From: Hyphomicrobiales bacterium
Lineage (GTDB): Bacteria > Pseudomonadota > Alphaproteobacteria > Rhizobiales > JAKSCL01
Direction: 5' to 3'
Assembly (NCBI GenBank): GCA_022360615.1
Contig: JAKSCL010000044.1
Location: 1-35,723 of the forward strand
Length of the DNA: 35,723 nucleotides
Positions within the stretch are counted from its first letter, which is position 1, and each line of letters opens with the position of its first letter. This document shows, piece after piece, positions 15,805 through 21,104 of this stretch. Position numbers and translations under genes: made by a program. The notes beneath the pieces were generated by a model. The model saw nothing but the letters and a program-made list of their open reading frames with translations. It was not told the DNA's origin and ran no database searches.

Positions 15805-18288
15805 CTACGCGTATGACAGTCTAAGGCTTTCACGGGATTCAAAAGCGTCCCCAGTCTTGTTGAAGACGATTAATCGCCGTTCCATTCCAAGACTGCCGCC
15901 CCGGCAGAATGCCGGTAGCGAAGATACACCATGAGGGATTTGATGTTTTCCAAGCGCCCATGAAAGCGCTTCGCTCGTGTTGCCCGATCGTTTCAAATCG
16001 TCAATCGAGCCCATCGATATGATGATGTCGGATCTTTCAACGATGTATGCCGCAGCACGGCGGAACAGCGTTTCTCTTAGCTCCTGATTGTTCTGCAGAT
16101 CGACGCGGGAAACATCTGGCGGCGTCATCTCGAAACAGTTCCACACGACATGTTTTGCGTTGGCCAGTGCAGCCCGGTCGGCGGCTGCGTCGTCACGGTC
16201 GCAATAATCTTCGGCTGCATCTTGAAGGCTTTCGAATGACATTGCCTGGGCGCTGAGAACACGCACGGTACGCTTCGACACTCTTACGGCCTCGCCCGCA
16301 AACAGGCGTGGTCCGGCAAGGTCAAATCCCGGTGCGCCGGGCGTCAGAAGTGTAACGGCGGATTCGCGGATATCTTGCTTCAGCGTGTTTCCGGCCAGTT
16401 CCTGGAAATGCCGGCGCAGGTTTTCACGCGCTTCTTTGGTGAGCGAAAGCGGACCGAAAAAGCCAATACGCAATATCGGGCGCCAGACATCCTGGGTTTC
16501 CCGGGATGTTTTCTCCACCGTTGCAACATGATTCAGAAGTTCCTCGATCAGGCGACGGTCTTTTTCTTTTTCGGAGCTTTCAAGTTCATTGGCGGGGGTA
16601 AGCAGCGGGTGGCGTTTGCGTTCATCATCCCGGCCAGCCGGGCGACCCGTATCATCTGGAGCACGCCAGCCGTTTAAGTGCTTTTCCGCCTTCCATCGCG
16701 CATGTTCGGCCCGGCCCAAGCGCGCCATGAGTTCCAAGTCCGAACGGATTCTCGAAAAGGCATGATCGGTCAGCGCTGGAACCTTCGTCACATCGATCCG
16801 GAAATCCTCCGGGGCGATGCGTGCGGAGCCCAGTTTCGCGTAGATATGATTTGCGGCGAGTTCATTGGCGAGACGCATCCATCGCGGCGCGTCCGGCCAA
16901 GCGATGTTCCGGGGATCTTCGGGTTTAAGAGTGCTGCGCCAGGCGTCGTGCATGACCTCTGCAAGGGCTGTGAAGCCTTTGCAGAAGACACTGCATTTTT
17001 GAGCAAGATCGCTGGCGGCGCCAAAGTCGACGACACCGTGATCGAGACGTTCCCTTTGGGTATTCCATGGGCTCCCGCGTCGGCGTTCGCGGACGAAGAT
17101 TATGGCGCGGGCCCGCAGGTGAACGTGCTGGAGTTCGAGCAGCCGGCCCACGGCGAGGGTGTTGATGTCGTCGCCTCCAATGCAAACGACGATGGCGGTG
17201 AGGGGGTGACGGCCTTCGGCGCGGTGAAGAGCCGTTTCGTCTTCGAGATTTGCGTGTATGGCATCGAAGTCCTCGAACGTGACCTCGATTGCCCGGGCGG
17301 CTCCTCGGCGCTGGTTGAGATACGCCGTTTTGAGCTGGGTAGCCTTCTTATCCAAGACAGTGACCATGGGATCGGCAAGATCGGTGGCCCAGCAAGTCAA
17401 AGCGATCTCTTCCAACACCGCGCGCCCGGTGGCACCGAAACCAATAATCACGGCGTGGACCCGGTCTTGCGCCCTCTCACGGGCCAATCCCAGAAAATCG
17501 TGTTCCACGACGATCCGCCGTGCACCGAGCTGGGCCTCGCTGATAACCTCAAGAGAATGCAGCTCCGGCTGCAGCGATCCGAACGTATTCTCAAAACTTG
17601 GCTCGTTCAGATGAGCGAAGGCGCGTGGCGTTCGGGTGCGCTTGGCAGCGTGCGGTTTTTGTGCCGACAGAGCGCCCATCACTTCGCTTGCGATGGCCAG
17701 GTTTCTGGCATCGTTGCCCCCGCCGAAAACGATCTCACTGGCCCTGTCGGCCGACGCGACTCGCACCAGATCGAGAGTGGGGTTGGCAGGTTTCAACAGC
17801 AAGACATTCGGTGTCCCTTCAAGCGTCCGCGTCAGGGTCTTGTCGTCGTCGAAGGGAACGACGATGGCCTGGCGTTTTTTAAGCGCCTGCGACCGTGCGA
17901 TCGCAGCCGTAAGCGGCGTGAGCCCGTAAATAACGAGATGGTTCTTTTTTAGACGTGCCGAAATTTCCGTCAGCCAGTTGGAAGCAAAGGCAAGGAAGAC
18001 CCGGATGATTGCCGAAAAGACGACAAGGACACCCACAAAACGCGCAAAAGACGTCCATCCGTTCGGCGGTGTAAGATAAAGGTCGGATGGACCGAAGGCA
18101 TGGAGGCTGAAATAGACTGCCGGGCCGATTTTTTCCCGAAATGTCTCCATTTGCACCGGACAGTGAACGCTTGGATGCATTTCGGCGATGCCTGGACATA
18201 GTGAAAATGCTTTGTGCCAGCCATATATCCCTGTGATCAGCGTGAGGGCGATCAGGGCAATGATGATGTAATCAAATATTTTTGTCAT
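15805..18288 (-). CDS. Channel-like membrane protein: 2 TM, two Rossmann (RCK/TrkA-N-like) modules, RyR and SLOG-like domains
   Basis: 827 residues. Helices lie at about 5-23 and 83-102. Between them is a pore-like segment, AVYFSLHAFGPSDLYLTP (57-74), resembling the pore helix of two-TM potassium channels but without a TVGYG filter. A first Rossmann module follows (about 114-205, LVIYGLTPLT), then a second with an intact GFGATG at 283-288. A RyR domain covers about 505-590 (core AEHARWKAEKHLNGW). The last 200 residues look SLOG-like, with RIGFFGPLSL, LLTPGAPGFDLAG, ERSDIIISMGS and SGNTSEALSWALG. The topology recalls MthK/BK channels with ligand-sensing domains added. The ATG at 18286-18288 has no clear ribosome-binding site. 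The upstream neighbour is a TIR protein, pointing to nucleotide-triggered signalling. Assignments were made by eye; the RyR call is the firmest. Confidence 0.75.
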   Translation of the reverse strand: MTKIFDYIIIALIALTLITGIYGWHKAFSLCPGIAEMHPSVHCPVQMETFREKIGPAVYFSLHAFGPSDLYLTPPNGWTSFARFVGVLVVFSAIIRVFLAFASNWLTEISARLKKNHLVIYGLTPLTAAIARSQALKKRQAIVVPFDDDKTLTRTLEGTPNVLLLKPANPTLDLVRVASADRASEIVFGGGNDARNLAIASEVMGALSAQKPHAAKRTRTPRAFAHLNEPSFENTFGSLQPELHSLEVISEAQLGARRIVVEHDFLGLARERAQDRVHAVIIGFGATGRAVLEEIALTCWATDLADPMVTVLDKKATQLKTAYLNQRRGAARAIEVTFEDFDAIHANLEDETALHRAEGRHPLTAIVVCIGGDDINTLAVGRLLELQHVHLRARAIIFVRERRRGSPWNTQRERLDHGVVDFGAASDLAQKCSVFCKGFTALAEVMHDAWRSTLKPEDPRNIAWPDAPRWMRLANELAANHIYAKLGSARIAPEDFRIDVTKVPALTDHAFSRIRSDLELMARLGRAEHARWKAEKHLNGWRAPDDTGRPAGRDDERKRHPLLTPANELESSEKEKDRRLIEELLNHVATVEKTSRETQDVWRPILRIGFFGPLSLTKEARENLRRHFQELAGNTLKQDIRESAVTLLTPGAPGFDLAGPRLFAGEAVRVSKRTVRVLSAQAMSFESLQDAAEDYCDRDDAAADRAALANAKHVVWNCFEMTPPDVSRVDLQNNQELRETLFRRAAAYIVERSDIIISMGSIDDLKRSGNTSEALSWALGKHQIPHGVSSLPAFCRGGSLGMERRLIVFNKTGDAFESRESLRLSYA

Positions 18289-18503
18289 TGAAAAAGCGTC
18301 TAGATGAAGTAAAAATCAATGTAGTTTATCAGTATATATTATGATATGAGGGGAGTGTTTGATATATTGCTTGAATTGCGACATGAGCGGTGCTGGAAAT
18401 ATTCATTTTACTCTCAATTGTTACGCTGTGCGGGAGTGAGAGTCAGCCATATTCTGAGGGGCTAAATGCGCGAAAAAGCGGCAGTTGAGCGGCTTCGTCG
18501 CGA
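18289..18503. other. AT-rich spacer between the TIR and RyR/SLOG genes
   Basis: 215 bp without a gene. The segment 18301-18360 has only 16 G or C in 60 bases, far below the surrounding coding DNA. It probably carries the promoter of the RyR/SLOG gene; TATACT on the minus strand (18336-18331) could be a -10 element, but no convincing -35 is visible. Low G+C spacers are common in horizontally acquired defence genes. Confidence 0.5.
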
Positions 18504-20648
18504 TTAGCCGTCCAAAAGCGCGAGAGACCCTCGGACTATTCCGATATGGTTCCGTTGAGGCTCTGTAAGCCTGTTTTCCTTTTCAAGTCTCTGAAGAATG
18601 GAAAGCGCTTGCGCCCAGGCGTCACGTTTAGCATTCGCCGTAGGGCTAACCAATGCGATCTTGTCGTAGGTTATGGCCAGTTCGAATTGCCAGGCGGTGT
18701 GGTTGGAGTCGCGGGCGATGAGAGAGACTAAAAGGTCGACGCCTTCCCTGTAAGCGCGCAGAGCTGCTTCTTTGTCATCGTTACGCCTATGAATATCCCC
18801 GAGTCTCAGAAGATTTTCTGCGACATCGAACTTCCATTCTGTGTTCTCCGGGTCGTGAAGCGCTAGGGACCGCGCAATTTCAAGGCCCTCCTTGTAAGAA
18901 GCCAAGGCCCCTTCCATATTGCCGGTTCGGTATTGAGCGTCGCCGATAATACTAAGGTTATTCATGACAATGCCCTGCCACAGGGTGTTTGCCGGGTCGC
19001 TGGCTGAAAGAGTGCGTGAGACATCCAAAGCCTCTTCAAAAGCAGCCAGCGCCTCGTTTGCATTGCCGGAGGACAATAAGGTGAAGCCAGTCTTGCTAAG
19101 AACCGCTGAAAAAACATGTTGCAGCCTTGTGTTCCCCGGATTTTGAAGCAGCAGAGGGCGCGCAATGCTTATCCCTTCCCCAAAGGCCTTTAGAGCATTT
19201 TTTGTGTCTCCATCGAGCAAGTAAACGCTGCCGATGGCATGAAGGCTTCTGAGGATTCCTGCAAACAAGTCCGCTTTTTCAGGAGCGTCGGCGGCGAGAG
19301 CGCGTCCGATTTCGAGGCTCTCCTGAAAAGCGCTGAGCGCGCTTCGAAAATCACCGGCATTTCGATGGATGTCGCCAAGCAATATAAGGCTGGTTGCCAC
19401 ATCGCGTTGCCGTGCGATGTTATCAGGACTGTGAGCGGCGACCTCACGGGTTATGTCCAGGCTTTCTTGGAATGCCGATGCGGCTTTGCCGATATCGCCG
19501 GAGGTTAAATGGATCTGGCCAATAAGCCGGAGTGTTGATGCAACATCAGCCCGCCAACCCATGTCTTCGGGGTCGCGCGCGGCACGAGCACGAAAGATTG
19601 CCAAAGCTTGCTCATGAAGGGACAGCGCTTCATCAAGGTCACCACGTTTCCGGTAAGTATCGCCAAGCTGACTGAGCGCGATGCCTTGGCTCACATCAAG
19701 CTCTTCGTCTTTGGAAAAGTTTTCCGACAGATGTGCCTGAAGCTTCCGTGCCTCTTCAAGGATTGACTGTGTAACCTCGATCGGAATGCTGCTGTTCTCA
19801 AATCTCCGCGCCAAGTCGACAACAAGACGGTTTGCTGTCTGAGTGGCGGTGCGAAGCGCGGCTTGGGCTTTTTCGTTCGCCACCTCTGCCTCGATCCGGC
19901 GTTCGTCCGCACGTTCCGCAGCCTCGATGGCGGCCAGGCGCTGTTCCTGCGCCTCGTTGCGCTGAATGAGCGCGAAAAGGGACAAGGCGACAGCGATAAT
20001 CGCAACGGCCAGTGACGCCAAAACGGCGATTTGCTGTCTCTTTCCATGCGCGCGCCGGCTTGCGTGGATAAGGTCAAGAATCTCCTCGGATGGCGGCGCC
20101 GCGTTCGGCTGTATCCCTTTCCAGTCCTCAGCATCGCTGAGCGCGGTTCCGCGAAGAAGAAGATCGCCCTTCTTGCCTTTTGCCAGCCACTGCCGGGCGC
20201 GGTCGCCGAGCCGGGTGTGCTCTTTCAGCCAGGCCTGGTCGGTGTTAAGCGCGGTAATGAGCGGGGCAAGATGCGCATCGAACTCAAATACGCTTTCGGC
20301 GGGGAGGACATGGATCTTTCCCAAGGCCGCCGGAAGATCCTCTGGCCCGACATCGCCGATCCTCACCGGCAAAAGGCGTTTTTTCAGCCGCTGAACCTCG
20401 CCAAGCTCCCAATTGCACCATTTCGATGCGGCGGATGCCGGGCTAACGAGCCAGACCACCGTATCGGCTGCCCTGATGAAGTCAGCCAGTTCAGCCTGCC
20501 ATTCCTCGCCATAGGGCAGGTCGCGCCGGTCTATGGAGACGTCGAACCCGGCATCTTCCAGCGCGGCGACGAGTTGATCGGTGACCGCGGTGTCCTGACG
20601 CGAATAGGAAATGAAGAGCTTAAGCTTATCGCCGTTCTTTTGCGCCAT
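18504..20648 (-). CDS. TIR domain - transmembrane - coiled coil - TPR protein
   Basis: 714 residues. The TIR domain occupies about 8-135: box 1 is KLFISYSRQDTAV, DLPYGEEW follows, and SKWCNWELGEV supplies the conserved Glu at 81 that serves as catalytic residue in NAD-cleaving TIR domains. One helix lies at 206-227, then an Ala/Glu-rich coiled coil at about 230-270. From 320 to 660 come seven TPR-like units whose central Gly recurs at 329, 377, 425, 473, 521, 569 and 617, an exact 48-residue period. The TIR would face the cytoplasm if the N-terminus is inside. The ATG at 20646-20648 has GAGG three bases upstream, close spacing. The RyR/SLOG gene follows on the same strand. NAD hydrolysis or cyclisation is inferred from the family. 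Confidence 0.88.
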   Translation of the reverse strand: MAQKNGDKLKLFISYSRQDTAVTDQLVAALEDAGFDVSIDRRDLPYGEEWQAELADFIRAADTVVWLVSPASAASKWCNWELGEVQRLKKRLLPVRIGDVGPEDLPAALGKIHVLPAESVFEFDAHLAPLITALNTDQAWLKEHTRLGDRARQWLAKGKKGDLLLRGTALSDAEDWKGIQPNAAPPSEEILDLIHASRRAHGKRQQIAVLASLAVAIIAVALSLFALIQRNEAQEQRLAAIEAAERADERRIEAEVANEKAQAALRTATQTANRLVVDLARRFENSSIPIEVTQSILEEARKLQAHLSENFSKDEELDVSQGIALSQLGDTYRKRGDLDEALSLHEQALAIFRARAARDPEDMGWRADVASTLRLIGQIHLTSGDIGKAASAFQESLDITREVAAHSPDNIARQRDVATSLILLGDIHRNAGDFRSALSAFQESLEIGRALAADAPEKADLFAGILRSLHAIGSVYLLDGDTKNALKAFGEGISIARPLLLQNPGNTRLQHVFSAVLSKTGFTLLSSGNANEALAAFEEALDVSRTLSASDPANTLWQGIVMNNLSIIGDAQYRTGNMEGALASYKEGLEIARSLALHDPENTEWKFDVAENLLRLGDIHRRNDDKEAALRAYREGVDLLVSLIARDSNHTAWQFELAITYDKIALVSPTANAKRDAWAQALSILQRLEKENRLTEPQRNHIGIVRGSLALLDG

Positions 20649-21027: not shown

Positions 21028-21104
21028 TGGTCGGAGTGGCAGGATTTGAACCTGCGACCCCCTCGTCCCGAACGAGGTGCGCTACCAGGCTGCGCCACAC
21101 TCCG
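21028..21104 (-). tRNA. tRNA-Pro (anticodon CGG)
   Basis: 77 nt including an encoded CCA. The acceptor stem CGGAGTG pairs with CACTCCG, the anticodon arm is CCTCG-TTCGGGA-CGAGG with anticodon CGG, and the T arm is CAGG-TTCAAAT-CCTG. The discriminator base is A. The D arm contains AGCCTGGTAGC. The 3' end faces the TIR/RyR segment, the side where tRNA-targeted elements insert. Confidence 0.95.

Follow-up and report, generated by a model that had tools for sequence, protein, structure and literature searches.

Recurrent pairing of a TIR protein with a RyR-domain, RCK-channel-like protein: a candidate Thoeris-like two-gene system

What do a TIR gene and a gene for a membrane protein carrying a RyR domain do side by side in a bacterial genome? 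The question arises from a contig of a Hyphomicrobiales bacterium (JAKSCL010000044.1, positions 1 to 35,723; this whole stretch of 35,723 nucleotides is called the window below). Bacterial TIR signalling works through SLOG, Macro and similar effectors. An earlier note, made from the letters of the window without database searches, had proposed that the TIR protein makes a NAD-derived messenger, and that the RyR and/or SLOG domain of its neighbour senses it and changes membrane conductance. Our analysis supports that interpretation, in which messenger synthesis, messenger binding and a change in conductance are still inferences.

The two genes lie next to each other on the minus strand, as the note had it, at the coordinates given in Table 1. 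They encode products of 714 and 827 residues, and the TIR gene is transcribed first. Because the 215-bp spacer between them is AT-rich, co-transcription is not assured; scans for promoters and terminators gave matches no better than chance. A search of the full assembly, which is 3.9 Mb long and 93% complete, found TIR_2 and RyR once each, in these two adjacent genes. Third-position GC is 0.60 and 0.62 in the pair, below the 0.69–0.80 of six sampled neighbour genes, a base composition that would suit acquisition of both genes as one unit. The other window genes sampled have common metabolic roles (BioY, DUF1989, an AMP-binding enzyme, an amino-acid ABC transporter, a dimethylglycine-dehydrogenase-like enzyme and an aminotransferase), and no defence island was seen among them. 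A tRNA-Pro gene at 21028–21104, about 380 bp upstream of the TIR gene, points its 3′ end towards it. The 3′ ends of tRNA genes are typical integration sites. A tRNA-linked island was considered, and convincing direct repeats flanking the pair were not found; nor could an empty site be demonstrated, the sister genome having another gene order around the conserved DUF1989 gene.

Table 1. Features of the TIR and RyR-channel-like gene pair (positions of the window; residue numbers refer to the respective protein)
Feature	Position	Strand	Basis or remark
TIR-TM-TPR protein, 714 aa	18504..20648	-	Pfam TIR_2 8.6e-23, TPR_2 6.9e-30; sole TIR_2 of the genome
TIR domain, residues 12-113	20310..20615	-	Pfam TIR_2
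E81, catalytic-type Glu (SKWCNWE)	20406..20408	-	Glu in 14/14 aligned TIRs
Single predicted membrane helix, residues 207-225	19974..20030	-	hydropathy peak 2.81
TPR array, ~residues 290-700	18549..19781	-	Pfam
Spacer	18289..18503	.	215 bp, 42% GC (AT-rich); own transcription of channel gene not excluded
RyR-domain RCK-channel-like protein, 827 aa	15805..18288	-	Pfam RyR and TrkA_N; GsuK fold match 8e-9
Predicted membrane helix 1, residues 4-22	18223..18279	-	hydropathy and AlphaFold2 model
Pore-helix-like segment, residues 50-62, without TVGYG filter	18103..18141	-	AlphaFold2 model
Predicted membrane helix 2, residues 84-102	17983..18039	-	hydropathy and AlphaFold2 model
First RCK-like Rossmann domain, residues 118-250, dinucleotide motif degenerate	17539..17937	-	alignment and AlphaFold2 model
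Second RCK/TrkA_N domain, residues 280-389, GFGATG intact	17122..17451	-	Pfam TrkA_N 1.2e-5, above cut-off; AlphaFold2 model
RyR (Repeat12-type) domain, residues 464-598	16495..16899	-	Pfam 519-589; human RyR3 Repeat12 fold match 7e-4
H529, equivalent of RyDEP H75	16702..16704	-	94/94 relatives
W532, equivalent of RyDEP W78	16693..16695	-	92/94 relatives
H560, equivalent of RyDEP H100	16609..16611	-	88/94 relatives
D577, equivalent of RyDEP catalytic D117	16558..16560	-	D 56/94, N 32/94 relatives
Likely divergent SLOG domain, ~residues 605-790	15919..16476	-	motif alignment and model fold matches

The TIR domain and catalytic-type Glu read from the window by the note are borne out by the TIR_2 match and by a glutamate that is present throughout the alignment (Table 1), which comprised the window TIR and 13 TIRs adjoining relatives of the channel gene. 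The protein also has a predicted membrane helix, preceded by basic residues, which would suggest, by inference from the sequence, that the TIR domain is cytoplasmic and the TPRs lie outside. Over 473 aa its TPR region shares 33% identity with the corresponding part of a TIR-nSTAND1-TPR protein in another locus (L015), which also adjoins a RyR channel gene. With this anatomy the 714-aa protein is a candidate for a NAD+-consuming signal synthase and sensor, its enzyme activity being inferred. The helix at residues 207–225 had escaped the note, as had the pore-helix-like segment at residues 50–62 of the channel-like protein.

The 827-aa product runs from a membrane helix through a pore-like helix and a second membrane helix to two Rossmann domains of the RCK/TrkA_N type, the RyR domain and a tail that is likely a divergent SLOG domain. 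The two membrane helices that the note had seen were recovered by hydropathy and in the AlphaFold2 model, and its Rossmann modules correspond to two Rossmann domains in that model, one of them with a TrkA_N match above the Pfam cut-off. In the model (mean pLDDT 68.7, only about 49–63 in the pore region and with the tail poorly modelled) the second membrane helix runs on to residue 113, unbroken into the linker to the first Rossmann domain. Foldseek searches with it returned GsuK as the top match, followed by TrkA, KtrAB, Slo1 and human RyR3 Repeat12 (values for GsuK and RyR3 in Table 1), and with a profile of 16 relatives the match values were 6.4e-17 for GsuK and 4e-33 for ryanodine receptors. 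The protein thus has the layout of GsuK, two membrane helices around a pore helix and then a pair of RCK Rossmann domains, within the low confidence of the modelled pore region. The K+ selectivity filter TVGYG (TxGY/FG) was absent from the window protein and from aligned relatives, in which the loop between the helices often resembles D-x-L-Y-R-T-L-Q-L-F. As far as the model goes, the protein is RCK-channel-like; channel activity and ion selectivity are unproven because the pore segment lacks the K+ filter.

The RyR domain announced by the note was confirmed by a Pfam match above the gathering cut-off (PF02026; 1.2e-7, 32.3 bits against 27.4) together with the fold match to human RyR3. What such a domain might bind is indicated by a 2026 preprint on phage RyR-domain proteins, which bind 2′cADPR and 3′cADPR: a complex formed with 6 of 8 homologues tested, and two of the proteins bind these molecules with nanomolar affinity (PMC13232231). 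One of them, RyDEP of phage DyoEdafos, is a glycosidase that cleaves 2′/3′cADPR, with H75, W78, H100 and D117 lining the site; cleavage of the signals was not found for the other RyDEP homologues tested (PMC13232231). Since phage RyR-domain proteins bind or cleave 2′/3′cADPR (PMC13232231), the messenger steps of the proposal are better grounded than before. To place the ligand residues we aligned RyDEP (gp78 of DyoEdafos) with the channel family of the window protein. All four residues have identical counterparts there, H529, W532, H560 and D577, and the first three are conserved almost throughout the relatives (Table 1). Invariant columns in a 16-member alignment likewise fall mainly in the RyR domain (W464, N475, H481, E528, H529, W532 and H560).

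The presence of all four active-site residues, D577 included, would also be expected of an eraser, that is, a RyR domain that resets the system by hydrolysing the signal from the TIR protein, the membrane part serving as scaffold or anchor and not as effector. RyDEP of DyoEdafos is itself such a glycosidase (PMC13232231). We find this improbable, because more than a third of the relatives lack the catalytic D (N, V, Y, C, Q or A stands in its place) with the binding residues kept, and because no cleavage of the signals was seen with the remaining RyDEP homologues (PMC13232231). By our inference from the alignment, a change of D to N at this position would spare shape and binding and lose the proposed acid catalysis, as expected of a sensor.

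The SLOG-like C terminus claimed by the note fared less evenly. The tail has no Pfam match, and a single-sequence profile comparison with hhalign was weak (42% probability over 44 columns). On the other side, three SLOG motifs align in order between the tail and SLOG proteins encoded beside relatives, GH becoming GP and GGT becoming GNT; and with these neighbouring SLOG proteins as input alignment, a model of the tail (pLDDT 71) matched YpsA (4.2e-5), DprA, LOG and a Moco carrier, all of them SLOG. From motifs and model we regard the C-terminal tail as likely a divergent SLOG domain.

Whether the two genes belong together was examined across relatives. Protein and profile searches of genomes and plasmids and one collection scan gathered 94 loci with a family member; collapsing the 28 Micromonospora-type loci to one lineage and Frankia to one left 52 lineages that carry a channel-RyR gene. 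TIR was not selected for, because loci were chosen by the channel alone. A TIR gene lies within 10 kb of the channel-RyR gene in 21 of the 52 lineages, within 3 kb in 17 and within 300 bp in 13. For the 10-kb range only 0.5 would be expected (Poisson P 5e-27), an excess of about 40-fold; to obtain this expectation, the TIRs of 16 of the genomes were counted (46 in ~66 Mb) and the resulting density was applied to the flanking sequence available. TIR calls rested on a profile from Pfam-confirmed TIR_2 seeds; ten of the scanned neighbours had a TIR_2 match in Pfam, and the genome-wide TIR count confirmed the neighbour in L077 and added the TIR in L074. As a control, 20 TrkA_N loci without RyR from the same phylum were inspected, and none has a TIR, DUF4062, SLOG or patatin gene (Fisher P 2.5e-4). 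In three relatives (G175, G658 and G870), too, the nearby TIR is the sole TIR_2. The pairing occurs in bacteria and in one archaeon: on a Methanoregula contig (L115:137-2610) a 256-aa TIR protein gene stops 6 bp before the gene of a 565-aa TrkA_N-RyR protein, the simplest pair, whose channel-like member has only one membrane helix by hydropathy. In 18 of the 52 lineages, some of them on short contigs, no partner gene was found within 10 kb.

Genes that rarely neighbour each other across genomes would have refuted the earlier note, as would models without a TIR fold or without a SLOG or RyR pocket. Instead the pairing recurs, the TIR glutamate and the RyR ligand residues are conserved, and a SLOG fold was recovered in the model. 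That the TIR and channel genes are merely unrelated neighbours could be argued from the 215-bp spacer and from the absence of a close relative of the exact window pair in a single-protein scan of genome contigs; set against pairing at some forty times expectation and no partner in any control locus, we give this almost no credence. Chance neighbourhood in the family at large is ruled out by the same counts (21 of 52 against 0.5, and 0 of 20). We are highly confident that the two genes form one functional unit.

TIR is not the only partner. Within 10 kb, DUF4062 (as DUF4062-STAND genes) was found in 9 of the 52 lineages, SLOG in 14 and patatin in 10; SLATT_3/DUF4231 accompanies SLOG in several loci, beside the channel or fused in some, and some lineages carry both DUF4062 and TIR near the channel. 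Work published in 2026 showed DUF4062 to be a TIR-like NADase in anti-phage defence, and the protein studied yields ADPR and nicotinamide (PMC13174449). The channel is thus repeatedly accompanied by a domain that attacks NAD+, since either TIR or DUF4062 recurs beside it. An alternative is that NAD+ itself is the signal: TIR or DUF4062 would simply destroy NAD+, the RCK part (as in GsuK) would sense falling NAD+ or rising ADP-ribose, and RyR would bind an adenine nucleotide, ADPR for example, and no cyclic messenger. In its favour, GsuK, the nearest fold, has known structures with either NAD or ADP as ligand; ADPR is among the products of the DUF4062 protein (PMC13174449); and GxGxxG is intact in the second Rossmann domain. 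We nevertheless consider NAD-depletion sensing unlikely: it is in the RyR domain, and not in the Rossmann nucleotide loops, that the family's invariant residues are concentrated, and the window protein has a degenerate motif in its first Rossmann domain.

Several loci show further arrangements. In most of the 28 Micromonospora-type loci the RyR-channel gene overlaps a ~170-aa SLOG gene by about 10 bp, and in eight of them (L116, L122, L132, L138, L146, L150, L153 and L160) it follows a ~1,400-aa DUF4062-NACHT-HEAT gene (domains from Pfam for L116); DUF4062-NACHT-HEAT, channel and SLOG are thus a three-gene arrangement conserved across a genus. On conjugative plasmids of Sinorhizobium meliloti (L009, L010) a channel relative and a DUF4062-NTPase-TPR gene overlap at the end of the latter, and SLOG and patatin genes are nearby. 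Patatin-like phospholipase genes adjoin the RyR channel in L014, L073, L075, L078, L074 and L106, several with SLOG-SLATT_3, which suggests a second, lipase effector in these loci. Two Oscillospiraceae loci (L151:3321-10915 and L161:3184-8084) encode RyR proteins with a poor or partial match to the channel family next to one or two TIR genes; they may represent RyR effectors with other effector parts. In two Anaerolineae loci (L152:7811-11075 and L164:7796-11072) RyR proteins of ~900 aa match the channel family over the RyR domain only, and a small SLOG gene lies no more than 15 bp downstream of each of their genes. In phage DyoEdafos, gene 89 (L071:5387-5803), about 5 kb from the RyDEP gene, encodes a DprA-like protein of the SLOG superfamily that could be a second nucleotide-binding anti-defence protein. 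A phage origin of the RyR channel itself was considered and rejected: the phage collection held no match, and the single viral-contig relative was weak, its neighbours giving no matches to family profiles.

RCK channels usually serve K+ homeostasis. With this general role, and with metabolic genes around the window pair, the pair might be thought a module of ion or osmotic homeostasis rather than of defence, its TIR-TPR protein a scaffold or a metabolic regulator of NAD. The family's distribution, however, is sparse and patchy, homologues sit on conjugative plasmids, and the neighbours of relatives (STAND NTPases, patatins, SLOG, SLATT) are the usual parts of conflict systems; a role outside defence seems to us very doubtful.

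The reading we prefer, and judge moderately probable, is a Thoeris-like system of two genes: the TIR protein would supply a messenger, either a cADPR isomer or a related ADPR compound, to which the RyR domain would respond by gating a membrane pore; ligand, gating, conductance and defence role are all inferred. The TIR protein, anchored in the membrane by its one helix and using the TPR arm as sensor, would be activated, probably by infection or by stress on the envelope. Once active, it would convert NAD+ to a messenger whose identity, including whether it is cyclic, we can only infer. For homologous TIR and DUF4062 domains, use of NAD+ has been demonstrated by others. This messenger would be held in the RyR pocket (H529, W532, H560, D577), binding there being inferred from the conserved residues, with SLOG as a possible second ligand site. 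Binding may then be relayed through movement of an RCK ring, built on the two RCK domains, to the part formed by the membrane helices and pore helix, so that the pore opens; gating and the ion passed are conjecture on the modelled layout. An open pore could cause depolarisation or leak, leading to growth arrest or death or stopping phage production, and the role in defence is likewise inferred. On the wider claim, that these proteins are a prokaryotic family of RyR-domain channels gated directly by TIR-made cADPR isomers, and so a Thoeris-like class that alters membrane conductance, our judgement is evenly balanced.

In Thoeris (ThsB TIR plus ThsA), as in the window pair, a TIR gene with a catalytic-type Glu adjoins an effector gene (a putative one in the window). 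The ThsA effector of SIR2-SLOG type has in SLOG a domain that binds cADPR isomers; here the candidates are the RyR domain, with binding inferred from its RyDEP-like pocket residues, and the likely, divergent SLOG domain. The Thoeris effector is a SIR2-SLOG or Macro protein, whereas that of the window is a membrane RCK-channel-like protein with RyR. Curated ThsA, ThsB and ThcB models gave no match to the channel; the TIR protein scored 56 bits with ThcB4, where the cut-off is 220, and ThsB models match it over the TIR domain only. PADLOC (2023) and NCBIfam (June 2026) have no model named for such a system, and none of their models scored above its cut-off on the tested proteins. We propose that the pair works like Thoeris, a mechanism that is inferred, but by curated models it is not a member.

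Other known proteins share single parts with the pair. RyDEP belongs to the same Pfam family and has the same ligand residues (H, W, H, D) but is a small, soluble phage anti-Thoeris sponge or glycosidase (PMC13232231), whereas the window RyR domain is fused to a host membrane protein beside a TIR. GsuK and other two-RCK channels give the best fold and profile matches and the same order of TM, pore helix, TM, RCK and RCK; the window protein differs in lacking the TVGYG filter and in carrying a RyR and a likely SLOG domain as well. Animal ryanodine receptors also fuse RyR Repeat12 to an ion channel, but only Repeat12 is common, and pore, size and remaining architecture differ. TRPM2 joins a SLOG-type domain to an ADP-ribose-gated channel. 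Nucleotide-centred conflict systems with SLOG and SLATT were reportedly set out by Burroughs et al. in 2015; like them, the channel loci have adjoining SLOG genes (14 of 52 lineages) and in some SLATT_3/DUF4231, whereas the effector here is of RCK type with RyR, and its pairing with TIR is undescribed in the open literature searched. In several lineages DUF4062-STAND takes the place of TIR beside the channel, a likeness to the Swarozyc/DUF4062 NADases; Swarozyc acts by NAD+ depletion, with no channel or RyR mentioned (PMC13174449). A described TIR-RyR channel system was not found in the open literature, and priority is uncertain, as the preprint with a systematic survey of TIR systems by Yirmiya et al. 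2025 (doi 10.64898/2025.12.03.692087) or the comparative-genomics paper of Burroughs et al. 2015 may contain the pairing.

A long-standing question is whether RyR-domain channels are direct targets of cyclic ADP-ribose. The archaeal pair of 256 and 565 residues would offer a simple, purifiable system in which to study such action. If the proposal is true, a channel gated through its RyR domain would be a new class of effector in TIR signalling, and the cellular RyR-domain proteins of bacteria would have a role. It would also hint at the source of the phage RyR-domain sponges, RyDEP being the same ligand-binding domain on the side of the virus, and would provide a bacterial counterpart of the disputed link from cADPR to the ryanodine receptor in animals.
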